From a virus, in the IMG/VR virus record IMGVR_UViG_3300037189_008474, positions 1 to 34,410 of that record: 34,410 bases of DNA, one strand, 5' to 3'. Each line of letters opens with the position of its first letter. The first letter of the stretch is position 1. Positions 6,067 to 20,565 of this stretch are shown here, one piece after another. The translations under genes were made by a program, and so were the position numbers. The notes beneath the pieces were generated by a model. That model had not been told where the DNA came from. It searched no databases and worked only from the letters and a program-made list of their open reading frames with translations.

Positions 6067-6299
6067 CACGTTCCTATCTCTGATATTATCGATGACGACT
6101 GCGTAATAAAATGCGGCATTTCTTTTGAAACTTGAGCCTCTGGAGTTTCGGGACCCCAACCACTTATGAAGAATGTCACAGAATTAGAACTATAGTTAGT
6201 CATAGCGCTGGTAATTTCTGCCGCTAACGGAAGTTGTAATAGTTCCTCAAGAACTTCCATAGACATTGTTATGTGACATCTCTTTTTTGTTATGGTCAT
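6066..6299 (-). CDS. Unknown protein, 77 aa
   Basis: Starts in an ATGA overlap with the glycosyltransferase upstream and ends in a TGATG junction with the 125-aa gene, so it is tightly coupled at both ends. The N-terminal half contains a helix (SMEVLEELLQLPLAAEITSA) and a short hydrophobic strand (SVTFFISG). No catalytic motif is visible. It probably belongs functionally with the 125-aa protein because they are co-translated. Confidence 0.6.
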   Translation of the reverse strand: MTITKKRCHITMSMEVLEELLQLPLAAEITSAMTNYSSNSVTFFISGWGPETPEAQVSKEMPHFITQSSSIISEIGT

Positions 6300-7066
6300 C
6301 TTGCTCTCCTTAATGGAGTTGGATCATAGACTAATCCTGGTTGGTTTATGAATTGATTCCACTGTGCCTTTAGTTCCTCTAAAGGAAGATCGCCACGGGA
6401 CCGCCAATGATAACCCTCGCCTTGAGAAAGATCGGTAGCATCGTATGCTTGCTTACCCTGTCTCAGTTTTCTTATCAATTGGTTTTCAGATCGATATTGA
6501 AAATGGCGTACTGCTAAAACATCGTACGTTATATCGCCACTGCGACTAACTCCGTGGTTGCCCTGATGAAGATAGCTACCTTCTTCGTATCGATAGGCAA
6601 CAGATGGCAGGCTTTTGATTCCTGGCTCCCTATAAACAGTATCAACTAATGGATTACCAGTATCAGAATCTAAAGGTTGTGGAACCATATCCCATACCGC
6701 TGCTAAGGTCACTGGGGTTGACATAGTTCTAAGTGCTTCACCTACTGTAGAGAATGGATTAGCTGAGAGCCAACACTCATCGGCGTCCATGGGAAGGATA
6801 ATATCTGCGCCCATAGATGCCGCTCTCTGTGCTAATCCATTCATCTTCGCTGATTGATAATAGCCGGGTTCGTTATCATCCAAGATGGTAAACATACCAT
6901 CATATCTTTCCGCAAAAGAATCTAGAATCAATCTAGTGTTATCGGTGGACATGTTGTCAGCGATGATGAAGTGATCAACTTCTTGAGTCAACATATGATC
7001 AAGGATGTACTGAATGATGTCATCTTCATCTTTGACCATGCTGATCACGAAGATTTTATCAGTCAT
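6296..7066 (-). CDS. Family-2-like glycosyltransferase (GT-A fold)
   Basis: The 256-aa protein begins with a short strand and the KDEDDIIQY...FIIADNMSTDNTRLIL pattern of the nucleotide-binding half of GT-A enzymes. D94-A-D96 (PMDADECW) is the metal-binding DxD. The C-terminal part has RHFQYRS and a basic helix (IRKLRQGKQAYD), as in Glyco_tranf_2_4 proteins. It would transfer a sugar from a nucleotide-sugar donor; acceptor unknown. It is the last gene of the glycan island, with a 4-nt overlap to the methyltransferase upstream. Confidence 0.88.
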   Translation of the reverse strand: MTDKIFVISMVKDEDDIIQYILDHMLTQEVDHFIIADNMSTDNTRLILDSFAERYDGMFTILDDNEPGYYQSAKMNGLAQRAASMGADIILPMDADECWLSANPFSTVGEALRTMSTPVTLAAVWDMVPQPLDSDTGNPLVDTVYREPGIKSLPSVAYRYEEGSYLHQGNHGVSRSGDITYDVLAVRHFQYRSENQLIRKLRQGKQAYDATDLSQGEGYHWRSRGDLPLEELKAQWNQFINQPGLVYDPTPLRRAR

Positions 7067-7566
7067 TTAACCGCCTTGATATACAGATCGTCATTGCCGA
7101 AGTAACCATCAGCTTCAATCACTGTGTAATCAGCAAATTCATTTAGCAGTAGGCAATCGATAATCTCTCCAGCGCTTACGTTACGATAATACTCTCCTTC
7201 ACGAAGGGCACCACCATCAAATGCTGAATGAGCAGGACGGTCACGAGATGCGCAACTGGCTATAAACCAGCCGTCTTCTTTGAGATGCTCGAAGGCATTC
7301 TTGATAATCTTAGGCCACTCTGACGTATGTTCAAAAGCTTCCGCACAGATGACGATATCAAATCTCTTATCTGATTTCCACGTAGTCGCATCAGCTACTT
7401 CATCTACACCATTACCTTCAGCGATATCGATACCCCACCAGGACTTAGCCTGAGGGTATGCGTCTCTCACTGAACCATTAATGTTGTAGCTACCAAACTC
7501 TAATACATCAAGAGGTGGTAGACCTTTTAATGCGCTCTTATAAAAAGCAAATGCTGCGTCGTGCAT
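7063..7566 (-). CDS. Class I SAM-dependent methyltransferase
   Basis: The 167-aa protein is a compact Rossmann methyltransferase. Motif I is VLEFGSYNINGS (residues 21-32), the acidic ribose contact is in WWGIDIAEG, and motif IV-like FDIVICAEAFEHTSEW is followed by LKEDGWFIASC. It overlaps both neighbours by 1-4 nt. In this context a sugar O- or N-methyltransferase is likely, but a small-molecule or protein target cannot be excluded. Confidence 0.85.
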   Translation of the reverse strand: MHDAAFAFYKSALKGLPPLDVLEFGSYNINGSVRDAYPQAKSWWGIDIAEGNGVDEVADATTWKSDKRFDIVICAEAFEHTSEWPKIIKNAFEHLKEDGWFIASCASRDRPAHSAFDGGALREGEYYRNVSAGEIIDCLLLNEFADYTVIEADGYFGNDDLYIKAVK

Positions 7567-8174
7567 TACATCACCTCTCCAATCATCAAACCTCTCGGTG
7601 TCTGAAAATAGATAGCCTTAAGGAATCCTTTGTTTTCTAAATCATGGAGTATAGCAGTTCTCAAGTCCATGTTGTAATCGGCAAACTGTCCACCACCGTG
7701 ACCTGGATGCGTGTCATGAAAAGCCACTATTGATCCCTTTTTCATGTAAGGATAATAGCGCAGAAACTCTGGCACTCGCAAGGTAAAAAGAGAGTCGAAG
7801 AATGCGAAGTGAATTTCTTCTTCCGGCATGAAGTCTAAAGATGCTTGCTTCCTACAATCCACTGGCAATCCCGCACAGCGATTACGAGAGTAGTCTACTC
7901 TCTCTTGATCTACTTCTAGGCTAACCAATCTACCATGACCGTTAGCCTTCAAAGCATTACCGATAGCTTCAGAAGTTTGTCCCCATGCGGAGCCAGTTTC
8001 TACTGCGTACTCAGGCTGCAAACCTCGCACAAGGCCTGCAAGCATCTCGGATACTTCTATCTCAGTAGAGTGATCGTCTGTGCTTGACCAGTACTGAGGA
8101 TTTGGACATAACCAATCTGGGTTACTAAATCTTGATTCAGGCCCGACTGGACCTATTCTACCTTCATCAGACAA
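7566..8174 (-). CDS. Methyltransf_24-type SAM-dependent methyltransferase
   Basis: I start this gene at TTG 8174, which follows AAGGAG by 7 nt; the product is then 202 aa. Starting further upstream would overlap the acyltransferase gene heavily without a ribosome site. Motif I is YAVETGSAWGQTSEAI (about 56-71). LVSLEVD supplies the acidic ribose contact. IHFAFFDSLF and GSIVAFHDTHPG follow, as in class I methyltransferases and CmcI-like enzymes of the Methyltransf_24 group that act on sugars or small molecules. The FHDTHPG segment could bind a metal ion. It overlaps its neighbour by 8 nt. Confidence 0.83.
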   Translation of the reverse strand: MSDEGRIGPVGPESRFSNPDWLCPNPQYWSSTDDHSTEIEVSEMLAGLVRGLQPEYAVETGSAWGQTSEAIGNALKANGHGRLVSLEVDQERVDYSRNRCAGLPVDCRKQASLDFMPEEEIHFAFFDSLFTLRVPEFLRYYPYMKKGSIVAFHDTHPGHGGGQFADYNMDLRTAILHDLENKGFLKAIYFQTPRGLMIGEVM

Positions 8175-8811
8175 TTGAGTTCTCCTTGATAACTTTAGCT
8201 GGCACTCCAACAGCTACGCTGTCGGATGGGATATCATCTACCACCACTGCACCAGCACCCACGATACTATTACGTCCCACATGCATAAGGTTAATAACTG
8301 TCGCGTTGGCACCGAGATAGGTTGTATCACCAACCTGAACATCGCCACATACTCTAGCACCGGGGCTGAGTGTGCAGAAGTCTCCAATATAACTTCCCTG
8401 ATTCACTGAAGCACCTGTGTTGAGGTGTACGTGACGACCAAGGTTAACTAGCGTAGTCAGTACGGAGTAAGGACCCATAACTAAACCAGGCTTATAAAAG
8501 TTTTGGTAGCCGAGATCTGCTGTTCTATGTATAGCCATCCCTGCTCTTGCGTGGATTGAATCCATGTAATCGCACAAGCGTCTACGTTCGTTTGGATCGT
8601 TTATTCCTATGAGATAATAAAGATCCTTACCACGTAGACTCATCAATCTGGTGTAATCAGATATTGGACCAAGAACTTCTACATCATTGGCAATCTTTTC
8701 TTTGTCGTCGTCCAAGAAGCCTAAGAAGTTATAGTCGCCGGAATTATTCAAGATGGCTTTGATATCACGTCCATGACCACCAGCTCCTAAGATTACTATG
8801 CTGTTCATCAT
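8167..8811 (-). CDS. NeuD/PglD-like sugar O/N-acyltransferase
   Basis: The 214-aa product has the two-part architecture of this family. A Rossmann-like N-terminal domain starts with IVILGAGGHGRDIKAIL (sugar-nucleotide pocket) and continues with LGFLDDDK. A left-handed beta-helix of hexapeptide repeats spans about residues 110-205 (VHLNTGASVNQGSYIGDFCTL, then VGRNSIVGAGAVVVDDIPS) and binds acetyl-CoA. NeuD O-acetylates sialic acid and PglD N-acetylates a UDP-4-amino sugar. No sugar-nucleotide dehydratase or aminotransferase is found in this window, so the acceptor is probably made by the host or elsewhere in the phage. The start is ATG 8811 in an ATGA overlap. Confidence 0.88.
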   Translation of the reverse strand: MMNSIVILGAGGHGRDIKAILNNSGDYNFLGFLDDDKEKIANDVEVLGPISDYTRLMSLRGKDLYYLIGINDPNERRRLCDYMDSIHARAGMAIHRTADLGYQNFYKPGLVMGPYSVLTTLVNLGRHVHLNTGASVNQGSYIGDFCTLSPGARVCGDVQVGDTTYLGANATVINLMHVGRNSIVGAGAVVVDDIPSDSVAVGVPAKVIKENSIV

Positions 8812-9446
8812 AATTTAAATCTCTCCTCTACTACACCGTAGTTGCCGTAGTTGTTCGGGTGAATTATATCCCGTACTGTATCAGACCAGTCGGCACGATT
8901 GCGAGAAAATAGAAGGATATTTTGTTTGTACCAAGTTTCCACTTGAGGATCATCCCAGATCTCGTATCTGAAACAGCCATTACAGTAGAACCCCAACTCC
9001 TGAAACTTAGGAACCCAATAACTTGGCCACTGTTCGTTGATGTGGTTGAGACCTCTTTGGCCAGGAACGGCAGCGGACCATAAGATGTTATCGGAGCAGC
9101 GTGCCACGTTAGCCACAAAGGCGTTTGCGTGCTCTTCTGGTAGGTGCTCAGCTACTTCGAGAGTAATCGCCAGGTCATACTTATGAAGCGGCACGTAGGG
9201 CTCACCAAGGTCGAATAGCTCGAACTGATCCTCGGTCAAAAACCGATGACCATCATTAGAACCATCAACGCCATAGATCTCTTTCACTCCACGAATAGAG
9301 AACTCGTGCAGCCAAGCACCAGTGCCGCAACCAAAGTCGATAACGGAATCAGGTAGTCCAAATTCTTGGATCACCATCGGTACGACCACGATAGCTGATG
9401 ACATAGCACCAAGGTCTATCTGATCATAGAACTCTTTGTTATACAA
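8808..9446 (-). CDS. Class I SAM-dependent methyltransferase (Methyltransf_23-like)
   Basis: Preferred start TTG 9446, seven nt after a strong GGAGGA; product 212 aa. A GTG at 9461 is an alternative adding five residues. The SAM site is plain: VIDFGCGTGAW at about 36-46, EIYGVDG, then LAITLEVAEHLPEE and a loop with WPSYWVPKFQELGF. The organisation resembles methyltransferases of polysaccharide gene clusters. It overlaps the preceding stop by 8 nt, the same arrangement as the TTG-started methyltransferase at 7566-8174. Confidence 0.85.
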   Translation of the reverse strand: MYNKEFYDQIDLGAMSSAIVVVPMVIQEFGLPDSVIDFGCGTGAWLHEFSIRGVKEIYGVDGSNDGHRFLTEDQFELFDLGEPYVPLHKYDLAITLEVAEHLPEEHANAFVANVARCSDNILWSAAVPGQRGLNHINEQWPSYWVPKFQELGFYCNGCFRYEIWDDPQVETWYKQNILLFSRNRADWSDTVRDIIHPNNYGNYGVVEERFKL

Positions 9447-10122
9447 ACCAATTTCCTCCACGATAATTACCTATGTGCTCAACAATAGGCGGATCGTCTA
9501 TCATTCCCAGGTAGGCGCAAGCAGATTCCTCGTTAAGAAATACTCTCTCACCGAACTCTTTTTCGCCGCCGCCCTTTGGCCACAGCGGTCTGGTGATATC
9601 AATTGAATAGACACATGGGTTAAGGGTAAAGAAATTCTTGTGCTCCACCCAAACTATATTGGGATCATTAGCCATGTAGTGAGTGAGATAAGACTTTGGA
9701 TTCTGTTGCATGAATCCACCGGCTTCCGCTTCCGCCTGGTTCACTGGTTGGCGCTTGAGAGCTACCTGCCATAGATGTGGTTGTGCTCGGAGAATCATGA
9801 TCATCTGATCTATCTTGTCAGCGATATCAGCATTAAACGTAAAGTCATCTTCGCAGTGAAAGATGTAATCAACGTCTAAGATCTGTGCCGCTTCCCATAG
9901 AGTGCGAATAGATCCTGACAACCCCATGTTCTCCGGGTGTGAGATTACATGGTATTCCCGACCATACTGCTCTTCCATTTTCAAGGCGTAGGAGGGAGCG
10001 TCATTGATCATGATCTTTTTGTAGAAAGGATAGTTTACTTTCTCACAGAGCGAATCCGTAGTTTGCTTTAGAAGATCTTCCCGACCATTACCGATTACTC
10101 CGAGCAGAACCTTGTACATCAT
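9439..10122 (-). CDS. Glycosyltransferase, GT-A family 2-like
   Basis: Start ATG 10122 lies in an ATGA overlap with the upstream gene and directly after GGAGG; an upstream GTG (10146) is less likely. Product 227 aa. The N-terminal VLLGVIGNGREDLLKQTTDS and the KIMINDAPS strand form the nucleotide pocket. HPENMGLSGSIRTLWEAA precedes the metal motif E91-D92-D93 in FHCEDDF. The C-terminal half (PNIVWVEHKNFFTLNPCVY, FGERVFLNEESACAYLG) would shape acceptor binding. Sugar and acceptor not predictable. Confidence 0.85.
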   Translation of the reverse strand: MMYKVLLGVIGNGREDLLKQTTDSLCEKVNYPFYKKIMINDAPSYALKMEEQYGREYHVISHPENMGLSGSIRTLWEAAQILDVDYIFHCEDDFTFNADIADKIDQMIMILRAQPHLWQVALKRQPVNQAEAEAGGFMQQNPKSYLTHYMANDPNIVWVEHKNFFTLNPCVYSIDITRPLWPKGGGEKEFGERVFLNEESACAYLGMIDDPPIVEHIGNYRGGNWFV

Positions 10123-10844
10123 CCCTCCACTAAATGTGTATGCCACTTACTCATGTAAACTTCTTGATCCTTTGCGACCATCTCATTGAACGATGGGGTG
10201 TACAAGACTACTGATTGTGATCCTCCACCAATATGTTCAAACACAGCTAGATTAGACATGGTGGTTCTCTTACCCATCTTGTGAACTGAATGAACTAGGT
10301 CATCATCACCATACCACCAATGATACGCTTCCTCAAATAAAGGAAGGCCATGAATGTACGCTTCAGCCTTAACCGCGAAACAGAATCCGGCAAAGCCTCC
10401 GTCTTTAAACGTACCGTTCACATCTCTAACATAGTCTTCTACATCACGGTACTTGCCCCAAGCATAGCCCTGCATGTCGTAGTTGCCGCAAGTAGCCCAG
10501 ATATCATCATACATATCTAGCGGCTCAACCAACTTGGTAAAGAACTTATCAGAGACAAGTAGTAGATCATCATTCAATATGGCGATGTAATCATTGGGAT
10601 GAGAAGAGAGAACTTCCTTCACTCCCATATTCCACATGCGATAGATACCCTTATCGTATGCGTTGATGATCTGTGCATCAAACATGTTACACAGCGTGCG
10701 AGTCTGTTCATCCATGCCGTTATCGAACACGATTACTTGACGGACTATCTCGTCATCCATCTCGCAGATCTGTTGAAGTAGATCGACAATCATACGATCT
10801 TTACCAATGGTGGGGATAATTACACTGACTTGTGGTAGTGACAT
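10119..10844 (-). CDS. Glycosyltransferase family 2
   Basis: The 241-aa protein opens with the canonical VSVIIPTIGKDRMIVDLL. A strand ending in DNGMDEQTRTL follows, then the NDD metal motif N91-D92-D93 (YIAILNDDLLL). FAGFCFAVKAEAYI and YHWWYGDDDLVHSVHKMGKR match the acceptor side and catalytic-base region (GDDDL) of GT2 enzymes related to rhamnosyltransferases. The ATG at 10844 is followed by a 4-nt overlap with the next glycosyltransferase gene. Confidence 0.9.
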   Translation of the reverse strand: MSLPQVSVIIPTIGKDRMIVDLLQQICEMDDEIVRQVIVFDNGMDEQTRTLCNMFDAQIINAYDKGIYRMWNMGVKEVLSSHPNDYIAILNDDLLLVSDKFFTKLVEPLDMYDDIWATCGNYDMQGYAWGKYRDVEDYVRDVNGTFKDGGFAGFCFAVKAEAYIHGLPLFEEAYHWWYGDDDLVHSVHKMGKRTTMSNLAVFEHIGGGSQSVVLYTPSFNEMVAKDQEVYMSKWHTHLVEG

Positions 10845-11306: not shown

Positions 11307-11966
11307 CTAAGGTAGGTGATTCCAATGGTTTATATTACGCGCTGCTCGTTCAACGTAATACTCTTCTTCTTCACCCGGATTATTCGAATCCACATACCAC
11401 GGCATATGTCTTGCTATGTAGGGTTCTTTCGTGCGAATTGAAAAACTGATATCTGCAGTGGCATGTTCTTTATACAAAGCAAACGTTGTATCTATTGGAG
11501 CAAACAGTAGATTAGGTTCTGGCCCCCTCCATGCTAGATATTGTGCTTCGTTATCTATTACTTCTTGTTTTTTTCTAAACCAATCTGGAATATCATCAAT
11601 CTTCAAATTGAATCCAGCCTTGGTTCTTTCCTCGTATTTATTGAGTAGGGCATCAAAATAGTCTATCGCATCTAGTGGGCACTCGTCAACTGGAACTACG
11701 TCTGGATCAGTCACGATAAAACGCCGAGGACCTGCCCACTGGTCTATCACACCGCTATGCCAAACCCCGGTGTGACCTCCGTTATGATTGAGATAAATCA
11801 CTCTGTGTGGCTGTTGCTTATACCAATCAAGTAGAGGTTCGTATGTAGACTCATTATCTACAAGATAGATTTCTTCTTGTCCGGCCTTCTCAAGCCAGGC
11901 TACCAGCTGCTTGGTATAGGTGACCCTGTCTCTACAGATAATGAATACTGGGAACTGTTTCACCAT
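11307..11966 (-). CDS. GT-A glycosyltransferase, divergent
   Basis: The 219-aa protein has FPVFIICRDRVTYTKQLVAWL and EIYLVDNESTYEPLLDWY as the donor-nucleotide half, and D87-P-D89 in FIVTDPDVVP as the metal-binding DxD. The remainder (RTKAGFNLKIDDIPDWF, FAPIDTTFALY, YVDSNNPGEEEEYYVERA) is like small hypothetical GT-A enzymes of bacterial and phage surface-glycan loci. Only 7 nt overlap the next glycosyltransferase, so it is part of one operon. Confidence 0.82.
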   Translation of the reverse strand: MVKQFPVFIICRDRVTYTKQLVAWLEKAGQEEIYLVDNESTYEPLLDWYKQQPHRVIYLNHNGGHTGVWHSGVIDQWAGPRRFIVTDPDVVPVDECPLDAIDYFDALLNKYEERTKAGFNLKIDDIPDWFRKKQEVIDNEAQYLAWRGPEPNLLFAPIDTTFALYKEHATADISFSIRTKEPYIARHMPWYVDSNNPGEEEEYYVERAARNINHWNHLP

Positions 11967-13831: not shown

Positions 13832-14418
13832 ACCGGGAATCGGTTTCTGATATATAGCTCGAAGTCTTCCCAATCGTAGACTCGGTCCTGATGTTCCACG
13901 TGACGATTCCATGGCTGATCGAATACAACGACACGCTCGTCTACCGCCACAGCATTACCCACCTGGTGAGGTGCATCGTCCAGAAGAATATCTATGCCCC
14001 GATTAGTTTTATCCTCAGCAAAGATAACTCCGTCAAACCAGACCTTATTATCAGCAAGCCACTTAAGAGTGTTCTCTCTGCACTGTTCATACCTTAGCCC
14101 AAAGCCTGAGCGTGATGTGACCAGAATGATTTCGTAATCATGAGACAGGCTACGGATAGCTTCTATGGCACCTGGTATAGCCTCACCTTGACCAAATACT
14201 ACACCGGCATCTATGCCAGAAATAGTTAGGTCTTTATATTCCTGAAAGGTAAGCCCCCACTGATCCGTGAAAAAGTTCCACGTATTGGCGTCTGGCATCT
14301 CGGCCAGTGGCTTACCAGTTTCTGAGTGGATCCAGTTCCTCAGCGTATCTACGAAGTTGTACACGACACCATCGCAATCCAGTCCTAAGCGAAACCTTCT
14401 CGTTTTCCGTGAACTCAT
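13828..14418 (-). CDS. 5'(3')-deoxyribonucleotidase-like HAD phosphatase
   Basis: 196 aa with the HAD motifs in order: motif I D14-C-D16 (LDCDGVVYNF, nucleophile and acid), motif II T101 in ILVTSRSG, motif III K137 (EDKTNRG), motif IV D147-D148 (DILLDDAP). The cap inserted after motif I and the overall length match the NT5C-type 5'(3')-deoxyribonucleotidases, which dephosphorylate deoxynucleoside monophosphates. In a phage with its own RNR and ThyX it could adjust dNMP pools or recycle host DNA. An alternative is a sugar-phosphate phosphatase serving the glycan genes around it. Confidence 0.85.
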   Translation of the reverse strand: MSSRKTRRFRLGLDCDGVVYNFVDTLRNWIHSETGKPLAEMPDANTWNFFTDQWGLTFQEYKDLTISGIDAGVVFGQGEAIPGAIEAIRSLSHDYEIILVTSRSGFGLRYEQCRENTLKWLADNKVWFDGVIFAEDKTNRGIDILLDDAPHQVGNAVAVDERVVVFDQPWNRHVEHQDRVYDWEDFELYIRNRFPV

Positions 14419-15239
14419 ACATGTACATCCTTACACTCGTGCTCAATACCAAGTAGATCGCAAGTAGCAATATACATTTGGCGAGCTTCCCTAAATAATT
14501 CGACGCTTCTTTCATTATGTGAATCTCCTGTGGAGGCATTCCATGTGTGCCCTGCGGTAGGAACTGTACCGTCATACCATACTTCGTATCCGTGCTTCTG
14601 CGCATGAACGGAAAAGAATGTTTCCTCGAAGTATAGTGGAGTAGGTAGGAACGCTCCCTCCGCCTCAGGCACAAACTTTTTATACAGCGGATCAGAAGCT
14701 AACTGATCCCATACTGATCTGCGCATGTAATAGATTGATCCAGATACTGTCCAGCACTTCTGAACATCCTTATACTTTGCGTCAAATGGATCAGGCTCTG
14801 ACCATCCTCTGTGGACGGGATTCCTTATACCATCCCAGAAGATACCACCATGCCTAATTCTAGCTTGTTCATCCATTTGCTTTACACCAATAACAGCTGC
14901 GTTAGGCTTGGATTGAAATGACTCGATGACAGACCTGACATGAGCAGTAGAAAACCATGTGTCAGCGTTTACTGCGCAAAGAAACTCTTGATTATCTGCG
15001 TGTGCCAGTTTATTGATAGCTTTTGCGTAGCCTACATTTTCACCGAACTCAAGAGAATCTATGTGTAGCTCGGGAATAGAAAACATTCTCTCTAGAATTT
15101 CTCTACTACCATCAGTAGATCCATTATCAATTATATGTAACGACCATACTCCAGGCTCCCAATCTTCATTGAGGCAGTGAACTAAACGCTGGATAAGATC
15201 TCTAGTGTTGTAGTTGACTACTAATAGGCTTACTCCCAT
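14415..15239 (-). CDS. Glycosyltransferase family 2, rhamnosyltransferase-like
   Basis: 274 aa, the longest of the seven glycosyltransferases. MGVSLLVVNYNTRDLIQRLV, LHIIDNGSTDGSREIL and FGENVGYAKAINKLA are close to WbbL-type GT2 sequences. The metal motif is N91-A-D93 (AVNADTWF). YFEETFFSVHAQKHGYEV gives the acceptor/base region, and PTAGHTWNAST follows. It overlaps the 109-aa gene by 10 nt upstream and the nucleotidase by 4 nt downstream. It is the first glycosyltransferase of the island in transcription order. Confidence 0.9.
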   Translation of the reverse strand: MGVSLLVVNYNTRDLIQRLVHCLNEDWEPGVWSLHIIDNGSTDGSREILERMFSIPELHIDSLEFGENVGYAKAINKLAHADNQEFLCAVNADTWFSTAHVRSVIESFQSKPNAAVIGVKQMDEQARIRHGGIFWDGIRNPVHRGWSEPDPFDAKYKDVQKCWTVSGSIYYMRRSVWDQLASDPLYKKFVPEAEGAFLPTPLYFEETFFSVHAQKHGYEVWYDGTVPTAGHTWNASTGDSHNERSVELFREARQMYIATCDLLGIEHECKDVHV

Positions 15240-16800: not shown

Positions 16801-16833
16801 AAAAGAAAAGAGGCAGAACCTTTCTGCCCCTTT
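16801..16833 (-). terminator. Rho-independent terminator after the 71-aa gene
   Basis: Minus-strand RNA: AAAGGGGCAGAA, loop AGG, UUCUGCCUCUUU (12-bp stem with one G-U), then UCUUUUA. It lies 24 nt after the stop of the 71-aa gene. Confidence 0.85.
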
Positions 16834-17151: not shown

Positions 17152-19149
17152 TCAGGAAACTTTTCTAAGAGCCGCCAATGCTGGTATTTCACAGGCTTGC
17201 GAGTCACAGAACGTGTCCTGCTGATCATGAGTTGAGTCAGTGCCCCAGGTGATCTTCTTGAGATCTCTAATCATCTCGGTGTACTGATCTTTGGTGATAG
17301 CTTCATACGGCATCTGAGCGTAAGCTCCCATTTCAAGAATGGGTAGGAACGAGATGCTCTTCAAACTCTTCTCATTATTCTTAAGTACCTGATAGATCTT
17401 ATCTTTTTCAGTAGCTGGATTGAATGTGGCAGTGCAAGAGACTTGGTTATCAGCCCAGTACTCTTGCATAAGAATGGCTAGATCAACCTTATCTTCTAGA
17501 GATACCTCTACCTCGGTAGGGACCTTATCGTCACCAGCCACAGGGAACTCTACTACAACAGTCCCTTGGGGATCGTTGACATCTGGTTCCACCTTGTAAC
17601 CAGCATTGACGAACGCAGTGACATCTGGATGCTGGGCGGCAAATCTAATGCGGCGGATGTAATAGCGTTGAGTTGGGTAGTGGACGCCGGGTGTTGCTCC
17701 AGCCAGGAGAGACACAGTTCCTGAAGGCTTAACTGAGGTTTTCTTGATTGATTCACGGACACACAACCATTCTGAGTAAACTCTGTCATAGTGTTCAATA
17801 GTGTTATAGCCAATCTTGGACCAACGAATAAGATTCTTCTCATTACGGTGAGCAACAAACTGAGCTACACCTGACATGGAAGTTCCGATACGACGGTTAC
17901 GCAACATCACAGCGTTAGTCTTGGCCCAGTGCGTTGGGATAAGAGAAACTGCCTTGGCATAGATGAAAGCGTGCTTCAAAGTAGTGCGATACTCTTCTAT
18001 ATTCTTATGATGGAATGGGAATGTTTCTACAAGGTTACAAACCTCATAAGTCTCAAGGCTTTGCTCTGCGCAGGGGTTAGTTCCTACTACACGATGGTCC
18101 TTGTTATCTGGCTTATCTGACATACGGCTATACGCACGCATGTTGTCCAGCCATACCAAACCAGGCTCTCCATTGTCTGCGATGCGATCAGCGATAGCTG
18201 AATAGTCCATGCCTACGTAGGCGTAGAGGCTGTTATTGGAAAGCCAACCATACTCAGCGCGATCGGGATTCATCTCATAGTTCTTAAGATTAATGAAGGC
18301 CTGATCATCTGGTTCACCAATAGCAATCTCAGCACTGCGACGAACATTGCCAGCCACAACACAACGGCCAATCAAGTTCATGATATCCGTAATATCACGT
18401 GAGTTCACATACTCACCGGAGCGATCAATAATGATCTTCTCAAGCGTCTCATGAAGAAGCTTCAAAGGCTCTGGACCTTCTGATACACCACCAAAACCCT
18501 TGATGACTGAGCCCTTAGGACGGATAAGAGAGTAGTCGAAGTCAGGCTTAGGACCGATACCAAAGCCCCATTTGATTACCGCACCGACGCTATCTACCCA
18601 ACCTTCACGGCTATCAGCGATCTGGAAAGGCACTGTGTTCTGGCGTGACGGATCCCAAACGATCTTGTTGGCACCGCGTGTATCAAACCCACAACCGACA
18701 CCCAACATAGAAACATCCATGAGGAATCTAAATGGCTCGTCAAACTCAATGTCGATGTCTTTCGTGCTAACAAAAGCACAGTTGTTCAAAGCCATGCCGC
18801 CAACCTTGCGAACATGGTCTGTCCCCATGACCCATAGACCACGTCCAGGTGGAAGGAACTTGAAGTTAAAAATCAGATCAAACATAGCCTCTGCATCACG
18901 GCGGGCAGTGATGATATCAAAGGGAAGATTGTAATACTTACAATGACTATAGAGAATTTCATACGTGCCCTCTACCACGCGTCTTACCGTTTGCCACCAA
19001 GCTTCTCCCTCGCGAGAATATGTTCTACGGTAAGTAATCTCTCCAAGAGAGTTCGGCCCCGATGCAAATCCCCATTTAGGTTCTACTTCAGAATAGCCAC
19101 CAAGAAATTCTTCCGAGAGGAAATCGACATCTTTTGTTAGATGAATCAT
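17152..19149 (-). CDS. Adenosylcobalamin-dependent ribonucleoside-triphosphate reductase (class II)
   Basis: 665 aa, slightly shorter than the monomeric Lactobacillus-type enzyme. The catalytic set is complete: C124 (LNNCAF), radical C360 and E362 in TNPCAEQSLE, and C371 (YEVCNL). The 11-residue spacing between C360 and C371 is the same as in the Lactobacillus enzyme. SVKPSGTVSLLAGATPGVHYP forms the phosphate/finger loop region. The C-terminal redox pair C648-x4-C653 (FCDSQACE) would regenerate the active site with thioredoxin. It reduces NTPs to dNTPs using coenzyme B12, independent of oxygen and without a second subunit. The ATG follows AAAGGA by 6-7 nt. Cobalamin must come from the host. 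Confidence 0.95.
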   Translation of the reverse strand: MIHLTKDVDFLSEEFLGGYSEVEPKWGFASGPNSLGEITYRRTYSREGEAWWQTVRRVVEGTYEILYSHCKYYNLPFDIITARRDAEAMFDLIFNFKFLPPGRGLWVMGTDHVRKVGGMALNNCAFVSTKDIDIEFDEPFRFLMDVSMLGVGCGFDTRGANKIVWDPSRQNTVPFQIADSREGWVDSVGAVIKWGFGIGPKPDFDYSLIRPKGSVIKGFGGVSEGPEPLKLLHETLEKIIIDRSGEYVNSRDITDIMNLIGRCVVAGNVRRSAEIAIGEPDDQAFINLKNYEMNPDRAEYGWLSNNSLYAYVGMDYSAIADRIADNGEPGLVWLDNMRAYSRMSDKPDNKDHRVVGTNPCAEQSLETYEVCNLVETFPFHHKNIEEYRTTLKHAFIYAKAVSLIPTHWAKTNAVMLRNRRIGTSMSGVAQFVAHRNEKNLIRWSKIGYNTIEHYDRVYSEWLCVRESIKKTSVKPSGTVSLLAGATPGVHYPTQRYYIRRIRFAAQHPDVTAFVNAGYKVEPDVNDPQGTVVVEFPVAGDDKVPTEVEVSLEDKVDLAILMQEYWADNQVSCTATFNPATEKDKIYQVLKNNEKSLKSISFLPILEMGAYAQMPYEAITKDQYTEMIRDLKKITWGTDSTHDQQDTFCDSQACEIPALAALRKVS

Positions 19150-19164
19150 TATAGTTCCTTTATC

Positions 19165-19857
19165 CTAATTATTTATACGAATTTTCTTTACCAATTTAGA
19201 ATCAACTTTGTTCAGCTCGTGCTCTTTAATTCTCAGCATTTGTTCTGGTTTATAAACCTCATAGATTAATCTCTCAAAGAAGTACCCAGTACGCCAGTTT
19301 GGAATCTTATTGATCTTGGTCTGGTACTCGGGCTTTAAGAAGATGTTGCATATGGTCGCTCCACCGTAAGCAAACACCAAGTTCTGCATCTTCGTTTTAG
19401 TTACTTCTCTCGACGCGTTATCTTCTACCCTCTCCATCAACCAGTTGAGCGCTTGTCTGGTCATTGGAACATATTCAACTGGGTAAATAATTCCCATAGA
19501 AAGTAATTGATTTCTATGTGTCTCGATCTTGGCGTCGTGTTCCCATATCTTTCTCAGTTCGAACTCCCAATCCTTTTCTCCGAACTTGGCGAAAGAACTA
19601 CATCCGAACAAGAGTCTGTGGTATGGCTCTTTTATTATAGACGAATCTTCCAGTGGAGCTAAGATAGTAAAGCTTATGTGTTGCTTCACACGCTGCTTTG
19701 CTTCGGTTTCGCTCTTAGTTTTCTTGAGAAGAAGAGCATACAGCTCCCCTATGTAATCCAGCCACTCTATATCGGCATTATAAATCTTCAGATACTGAAC
19801 TGCTTTGTCAGTGAGAAACTCGCTTACTGGGTTTGGCTCCACTGCTACCTCATTCAA
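19165..19857 (-). CDS. Unknown protein, 230 aa, upstream of RNR
   Basis: Starts with TTG 19857 behind a strong GAGGAG at 8 nt. The product is soluble and helical, rich in Lys/Glu, with SFTILAPLEDSSIIKEPYHRL, a segment FGCSSFAKFGEKDWEFEL, VPMTRQALNWLMERVEDN and a basic C-terminus (ELNKVDSKLVKKIRINN). No recognisable catalytic motif. It sits 15 nt upstream of the RNR gene and is probably co-transcribed with it. Confidence 0.65.
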   Translation of the reverse strand: MNEVAVEPNPVSEFLTDKAVQYLKIYNADIEWLDYIGELYALLLKKTKSETEAKQRVKQHISFTILAPLEDSSIIKEPYHRLLFGCSSFAKFGEKDWEFELRKIWEHDAKIETHRNQLLSMGIIYPVEYVPMTRQALNWLMERVEDNASREVTKTKMQNLVFAYGGATICNIFLKPEYQTKINKIPNWRTGYFFERLIYEVYKPEQMLRIKEHELNKVDSKLVKKIRINN

Positions 19858-19876: not shown

Positions 19877-19888
19877 ACTTATATAAGT
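19877..19888. repeat. 12-bp perfect palindrome in the leader of the 230-aa gene
   Basis: ACTTATATAAGT is self-complementary and lies 20 nt upstream of the TTG start. It could be an operator or an AT-rich -10-like element (TATATA), but I find no matching -35. Confidence 0.35.
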
Positions 19889-19901: not shown

Positions 19902-19936
19902 AAAAGCATCCCCCCTCCAAAACGGAGAGGGGATGC
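19902..19936 (-). terminator. Strong rho-independent terminator
   Basis: Minus-strand RNA: GCAUCCCCUCUCC, loop GUUUU, GGAGGGGGGAUGC (13-bp stem with one U-G wobble) followed directly by UUUU. It ends transcription coming from the holin gene or from the extended -10 promoter at 19992-20000. Confidence 0.9.
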
Positions 19937-19985
19937 CATTTATAAGTCTATAACCGCACTCAGGCGGTGTATAAGCTAATCTCTA
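19902..19985 (-). ncRNA. Candidate small structured RNA, about 84 nt
   Basis: Between the holin stop and the next gene lie an extended -10 promoter (start expected near 19985), a hairpin at 19973-19949 (UAUA plus ACCGC paired with GCGGU plus UAUA, one bulge, 6-nt loop) and the strong terminator at 19936-19902. No ORF with a ribosome site is present in between. The arrangement promoter-hairpin-terminator is that of a small RNA gene. An alternative is that these are only tandem 3' structures of the holin transcript. Confidence 0.45.
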
Positions 19986-19991
19986 GAAGAG

Positions 19992-20000
19992 ATTATATCA
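19992..20000 (-). promoter_or_regulatory. Extended -10 promoter overlapped by a palindrome
   Basis: TGATATAAT on the minus strand matches the TGnTATAAT extended -10 exactly; the -35 region is poor, as is usual for this class. A palindrome AATCTCT-AGA-AGAGATT (19978-19994) overlaps the -10 and start site and could be an operator. Confidence 0.5.
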
Positions 20001-20008
20001 CAGAAAAT

Positions 20009-20305
20009 TCAGCCGATACCTTTATTTGGAGCAGTCTTTTCGTTAATTCCGAAATTGCTCCAGAGACCGAGGTACGACAAAAGTTGAGCGCCATATACTA
20101 GCGCGAAGTTCATGAGCATCTCGGAGCTAATGAAAGCTGAACCATCGGCTGAGACAGCGTTTTGGATGGTGGCAGCGACGCCAGCTACGACGATACCCAC
20201 AGCGGACTTAACACTCTTAGGGGCGTTTACCTTAGTTAGGAATCCTACCACGAATGGAAGTACCAAACCTAGGGCAACCGCTACAGCCTGAGCTGAAAGG
20301 GTCAT
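20009..20305 (-). CDS. Holin-like membrane protein, 98 aa
   Basis: Three hydrophobic stretches at about 5-25 (QAVAVALGLVLPFVVGFLTKV), 33-53 (VKSAVGIVVAGVAATIQNAV) and 64-83 (LMNFALVYGAQLLSYLGLW), and a polar tail. Size, the GLVLPFVVGFLTK opening and the SVKSAVGIVV helix are like actinophage holins, which form pores at lysis time. A good AAGGAG precedes the ATG. No endolysin is adjacent in this window, so lysis genes would be split if this call is right. Confidence 0.7.
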   Translation of the reverse strand: MTLSAQAVAVALGLVLPFVVGFLTKVNAPKSVKSAVGIVVAGVAATIQNAVSADGSAFISSEMLMNFALVYGAQLLSYLGLWSNFGINEKTAPNKGIG

Positions 20306-20322: not shown

Positions 20323-20565
20323 CTATACAGTAAATTTATTAATATGTGTTTTAAGTGCTCTTCTCGCATTTTTATTGAAGAAGAGATGGTGCGTTAGTTT
20401 TAGCCATATCAAAGTCACTAACGGTGTCTTGATTGGATGTTCCAATGACCTCCACATAGCGGCGGACATTGTTTCAGCTTTTTTTGTTTTAATAGCTAGT
20501 AAATCATATATCAAGATAGATAAACCCATAATTAACCAGGCGTAATCTCCCTTGATTTTATTCAT
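20323..20565 (-). CDS. Small membrane protein, 80 aa
   Basis: Hydrophobic segments at about 9-26 (AWLIMGLSILIYDLLAI) and 48-64 (PLVTLIWLKLTHHLFF), with a basic C-terminus. The opening MNKIKGDYAWL resembles a small membrane protein often found near lysis and tail genes of actinophages; I recall this only as a resemblance. It is placed directly before the holin-like gene and 3 nt after the 205-aa gene, so an auxiliary lysis role is plausible. Confidence 0.65.
   Translation of the reverse strand: MNKIKGDYAWLIMGLSILIYDLLAIKTKKAETMSAAMWRSLEHPIKTPLVTLIWLKLTHHLFFNKNARRALKTHINKFTV

Follow-up and report, generated by a model that had tools for sequence, protein, structure and literature searches.

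We report a conserved module at the boundary between the late (structural/lysis) genes and a nucleotide-metabolism operon of a virus, in which a predicted extended -10 promoter is closely followed by a strong intrinsic terminator and the bases on either side of the -10 are complementary, probably as a hairpin in single-stranded RNA. Sequence comparison places the same promoter and terminator at the same position in related large phages, and on this basis we tentatively favour, at somewhat less than even probability, a module acting in cis, whose promoter-proximal terminator would control transcription across the boundary. The window analysed is a whole virus record of 34,410 bases, and the module is read on its minus strand (Table 1).

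Table 1. Features of the boundary module and its flanking genes (window coordinates)
Feature	Position	Strand	Basis or remark
Upstream gene, 98-aa holin-like membrane protein	20009..20305	-	Open reading frame; last of the structural/lysis block
Upstream arm GTATCGGCTGAATTTT	20004..20019	-	Best inverted repeat around the -10
Extended -10 promoter TGATATAAT	19992..20000	-	Sequence; motif and place common to relatives
Local palindrome AATCTCTAGAAGAGATT	19978..19994	.	Window-specific, not shared by relatives
Downstream arm AGAGATTAGCTTATAC	19969..19984	-	Also 5' end of the predicted short transcript
Predicted short non-coding transcript, ~84 nt	19902..19985	-	Predicted from promoter and terminator; end in UUUU, 19905-19902
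Bulged hairpin, core ACCGC-CTGAGT-GCGGT	19944..19976	-	Window-specific; z -1.5
Intrinsic terminator GGCATCCCCTCTCCGTTTTGGAGGGGGGATGCT, then TTTC	19905..19937	-	RNA fold; relatives have a terminator at the same place
CTTATATAAG element	19878..19887	-	Between terminator and 230-aa gene; counterpart of the relatives' (T)TTTATAGGTTT / TTATATAAGTTT
230-aa protein of unknown function	19165..19857	-	First gene after the module; AGGAG 19870-19866, TTG start 19857
B12-dependent (class II) ribonucleotide reductase	17152..19149	-	PF17975, PF21995, phrog_367

The upstream gene ends 8 nt before the -10 motif (stop codon, 20011-20009). Because its 98-aa product had no Pfam or PHROG match, the label "holin" reflects size, hydrophobicity and place; its neighbour (20323-20565) matches DUF7427/phrog_1042. 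An earlier reading of this DNA, made from the sequence only, had placed the module between holin and nucleotide-metabolism genes; the reductase does lie downstream, and the immediate neighbour is the intervening 230-aa gene, whose product is 38-45% identical to those of relatives. Elsewhere in the window, several glycosyltransferase/methyltransferase genes of one direction (6296-10844 and 14415-15239) lie downstream of the thymidylate synthase gene ThyX.

All elements named by the sequence-only reading were recovered in the window, among them the exact extended -10, the exact palindrome overlapping it (AATCTCT-AGA-AGAGATT), a GC-rich terminator with a U tail, and no coding sequence between promoter and terminator (no Shine-Dalgarno sequence plus start codon in 19985-19902). 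The bulged hairpin that it had also described exists (approximately 19976-19944) but is not unusual by itself and is without counterpart in relatives. No stronger terminator was found in the window: its RNA fold has 14 pairs, one of them G.U, a loop of 5 and the tail UUUUC. Mostly because of it, the 96-nt stretch containing the predicted transcript folds strongly (-40.2 kcal/mol; z -5.5 versus shuffles). A second strong terminator, AAAGGGGCAGAAAGGTTCTGCCTCTTT (16807-16833, minus strand), lies between the genes for a 71-aa and a 106-aa protein downstream of the reductase. By itself the TGNTATAAT pattern is at chance level (2 in the window versus 1.76 expected), and the palindrome is only mildly unusual; such repeats are not rare, the window holding 25 perfect 7-bp ones with loops of 3-8 and order-1 controls 11-19. 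Comparison with relatives was therefore needed, and we regard the feature as real because it is conserved there, not because of single-sequence scores.

When viral contigs were searched directly with the holin, 230-aa, reductase and tail proteins of the window, and phage records with the 230-aa protein, no close relatives came up. Relatives were reached via an alignment of the window's reductase with phage homologues, which gave six loci with the same gene order; the alignment of the 230-aa protein, used as the next query, gave 80 viral loci on contigs of up to 268 kb. The relatives encoding this protein are metagenomic (uncultivated) large phages. Nearly all have one layout: TGNTATANT, 12-45 nt, a GC-rich terminator, the 230-aa gene and then ribonucleotide reductase. 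Of the distinct upstream regions, 54/55 contain the extended -10 with the terminator after it; the distance from the -10 to the protein match is 135-192 nt, and the two most divergent regions have TGGTAGTAT instead. With a 205-aa structural gene as an independent query, 79 loci were obtained in which the 230-aa gene follows, and TGNTATANT stands at its place in 77. The two sets overlap and together comprise 131 loci, 43 of them non-redundant. All 79 of the 205-aa loci with enough sequence carry the 230-aa gene downstream, and the module therefore always stands before the same operon; no locus with a different downstream gene, which would separate action in cis from action in trans, was found among them. 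The gene directly upstream varies (a DUF7427 protein, a holin-like protein, or both), and the distance from its end to the -10 motif is usually 21-54 nt.

Between pairs of relatives of 62-92% identity, the terminator arms are the best-conserved part of the module (0.93 and 0.96), followed by the -10 and the terminator tail (0.88 each), and the RNA body (0.645) drifts like the upstream flank (0.646). Of the small RNA gene that had been proposed, a dedicated promoter, a close terminator and non-coding character thus hold over about 130 related loci; its RNA body evolves as fast as the flank, although a G-rich box is kept in the first bases. The sequence-only reading had also tied its proposal to hairpins being kept along with the flanking genes, and here the outcome is mixed: promoter and terminator are kept, and the middle hairpin (19949-19973) is not, the relatives' spacer measuring 12-45 nt. 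The window escapes a covariance model built from its relatives, so its membership in the group rests on place and layout.

A further conserved signal lies around the promoter. Bases before and after TATANT are complementary far beyond mismatched combinations of arms (z 8.5 for 31 loci of mutual identity below 75%; z 8.3 over the 43 non-redundant loci), and the arm sequences diverge freely among relatives while the pairing is kept. No such repeat was found at 85 other sense promoters taken together (z 0.56). The window's own arms (20019-20004 and 19984-19969) form 10 Watson-Crick and 4 G.T combinations, no A.C and 2 others, and the RNA fold of 20022-19966 reaches -13 kcal/mol (z -2.1). Under a scoring that treated G.T and A.C alike, cognate arms had 40 G.T versus 9 A.C mismatches, compared with 19.9 versus 12.7 in mismatched combinations (Fisher p 0.004, an optimistic value, as all hairpin counts treat related loci as independent); the first set of 36 loci had 36 versus 7. 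In 30/35 loci the better fold is that of the coding strand and not of its complement, a bias shared in part by upstream coding DNA. A double-strand operator should be symmetric, so the asymmetry points to pairing within a single strand; an RNA hairpin of the coding-strand sequence would be its simplest form. Because one arm lies upstream of the short RNA's predicted start, this hairpin could form only in late mRNA reading through from upstream. To our knowledge, and in a limited literature search, a hairpin built around a -10 in this combination has not been described.

The motif itself marks a wider set of sites. In seven large relatives TGNTATANT occurs at 85 sense versus 33 other intergenic sites (controls, 27/35 and 19/38), including sites shortly before the starts of other genes, and this intergenic, sense-direction enrichment indicates a real promoter class in this phage group. 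At three such promoters (L177:14135, plus strand; L198:10449, minus strand; L212:16091, plus strand) about 200 nt of conserved, highly structured leader separate the motif from the downstream gene; this leader ends GGTTTCGCAACCTGCG ... GAAAGGAGCGA ... ATG and has no Rfam match. L212 also has matches at gathering score to a Pistol ribozyme and a short tmRNA (9273-9340 and 11515-11592).

From this promoter and terminator, a short, self-terminated non-coding transcript is predicted, with good support from conservation. Its first bases are G-rich (G 34% versus 15% at other promoters; p 2e-9), with a box of consensus ~RGGCGGA at a fixed distance from the -10, and in most relatives the transcribed part would be little more than 10-30 nt plus the terminator hairpin. 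A Shine-Dalgarno sequence plus start codon is lacking in 26/29 loci; with one in only 3/29, a leader peptide was rejected. An Rfam search of the window and relatives gave nothing at threshold. The best sub-threshold match, the PyrR attenuator leader (RF00515), shares a hairpin-hairpin-terminator topology, and membership was rejected (25.1 bits versus a gathering score of 54; E 0.16; several broken pairs). Nascent RNA from the module's own start pairs with the terminator arm slightly more than shuffles do (p 0.048) and read-through RNA less (p 0.003). An antiterminator formed by the 5' box and the terminator arm is not supported, however (no covariation; z -0.58). For the arm preceding the -10, covariation extends to strictly transcribed bases as well (z 2.6).

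Two further elements bear on how the module is read. Between terminator and 230-aa gene, (T)TTTATAGGTTT or a variant of it occurs in 46/54 loci (e.g., L102 and L163). It was rejected as a general phage promoter, since no genome record holds the exact 12-mer more than once and the looser TATANSTTT is without sense bias (30 versus 49); possibly it is an unusual promoter or separate start site, and the operon would then be independent of the module. A second unit of the same layout, in the two genomes whose neighbouring genes were fully checked, follows an endolysin gene and precedes one for a large secreted protein, the neighbours being only partly checked elsewhere (sites L169:11524, minus strand; L195:17281, plus strand; L234:7464, minus strand; L251; L253), and similar units occur in further genomes. 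Most second units share the 5' sequence ACGGARRCCGRYGC, found also at the main module of L080 and L154.

Several known systems resemble the module in part. The leader of the lambdoid late promoter PR' goes by the name of lambda 6S RNA. PMC6606751 describes the lambdoid elements (PR', terminator tR' and antitermination by Q). The likeness lies in an intrinsic terminator a short distance after a promoter, ahead of a phage operon, with a short RNA; a hairpin spanning the -10, as seen here, does not figure among the elements described there. Q protein (PF06530 and PF03589) was found in 0/9 genome records, which may be incomplete and in which unrelated Q-like proteins would be missed, and a -10-like sigma-pause element in the first 25 nt occurred in 6/29 loci versus 4.8 expected, without enrichment. 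Because neither of these two defining features was found, the module is not filed under the lambda Q system. An AlpA-type promoter with a bypassed intrinsic terminator, as outlined in PMC9371919, is alike in having the terminator just downstream of the promoter and in read-through control, which is here proposed. Phage-derived small RNAs are reviewed in PMC12197685; those at mRNA 3' ends with promoters of their own are alike in that promoter, a shared terminator and non-coding character, and the module differs in its non-conserved RNA body and in the promoter-spanning hairpin of the longer mRNA.

We favour regulation in cis, followed by a small RNA acting in trans and then by a plain operon boundary. 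In the cis reading, host RNA polymerase would start at about 19985 from the extended -10 and mostly stop at 19902, so that the short non-coding product would measure about 84 nt in the window and less in relatives. Late mRNA arriving from upstream would be ended cleanly by the same terminator, and only there would the bases flanking the -10 pair into a hairpin covering the start of the short RNA. Leakage or licensed passage past the terminator would then set expression of the 230-aa/reductase operon. We prefer this reading because promoter and terminator are kept while the RNA between them drifts, because the 230-aa gene always follows, and because only a single lineage (L155) was seen to have a further TGNTATANT promoter between terminator and that gene. 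Against it stand the (T)TTTATAGGTTT element as a candidate separate start of the operon, the missing antiterminator covariation, the lack of a Q-type protein and of sigma-pause enrichment, the failure of the relatives' model to find the window, and the G-rich first bases at a fixed distance, which a purely passive boundary would not need.

Those G-rich bases speak for a trans-acting small regulatory RNA, made from a promoter of its own where the late operon ends and stopped by that operon's terminator; the late-mRNA hairpin would hide the seed so that only the short RNA is active. We consider this possible, at lower probability than regulation in cis. Its own promoter and terminator, non-coding character and strong fold are consistent with it, as are the covariation of the upstream arm with strictly transcribed bases and the similar 5' ends (ACGGAAACCGACGC) of the module before the 230-aa gene in L080/L154 and of the second unit in G010. 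However, the RNA body has changed as much as the DNA beside it, little beyond the first bases and the terminator hairpin would be transcribed in most relatives, and no Rfam family was matched.

The drift of the RNA body beside well-kept terminator arms would also suit a plain boundary, which we consider unlikely: a strong late terminator with an adjacent constitutive promoter. Leakage or a separate start would then serve the operon, the short RNA would arise as a by-product, and the hairpin would do no more than strengthen the late mRNA 3' end. Tandem hairpins are indeed common at mRNA 3' ends. This reading leaves unexplained why the -10 always lies so close before the terminator, why the hairpin around the -10 is found only here, and why the first bases are G-rich. 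Finally, the operator that the sequence-only reading had suggested on the promoter, a palindrome to which a phage repressor would bind, is very improbable: an exact 7-bp palindrome overlaps the -10 in the window and inverted repeats surround it in relatives, but AATCTCT/AGAGATT is not shared, the relatives' arms differ freely, and the repeat is centred on the -10, rich in G.T, poor in A.C and biased to the coding strand, whereas a double-strand site should show both mismatches alike.

Returning to the cis boundary module, one further suggestion, which we regard as rather doubtful, is an RNA 3' end that senses origin, the terminator region taking one fold in read-through mRNA from the late genes and another in the short RNA that starts within it; if so, the phage could treat the two transcripts differently. 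Gene boundaries in phages are usually annotated as empty intergenic gaps, and this one appears to hold a promoter, a terminator and an RNA-level hairpin kept over deep divergence, an unusual case of RNA structure conserved through a promoter. For phages known only from metagenomes, the module offers a concrete, testable regulatory element before the reductase operon.
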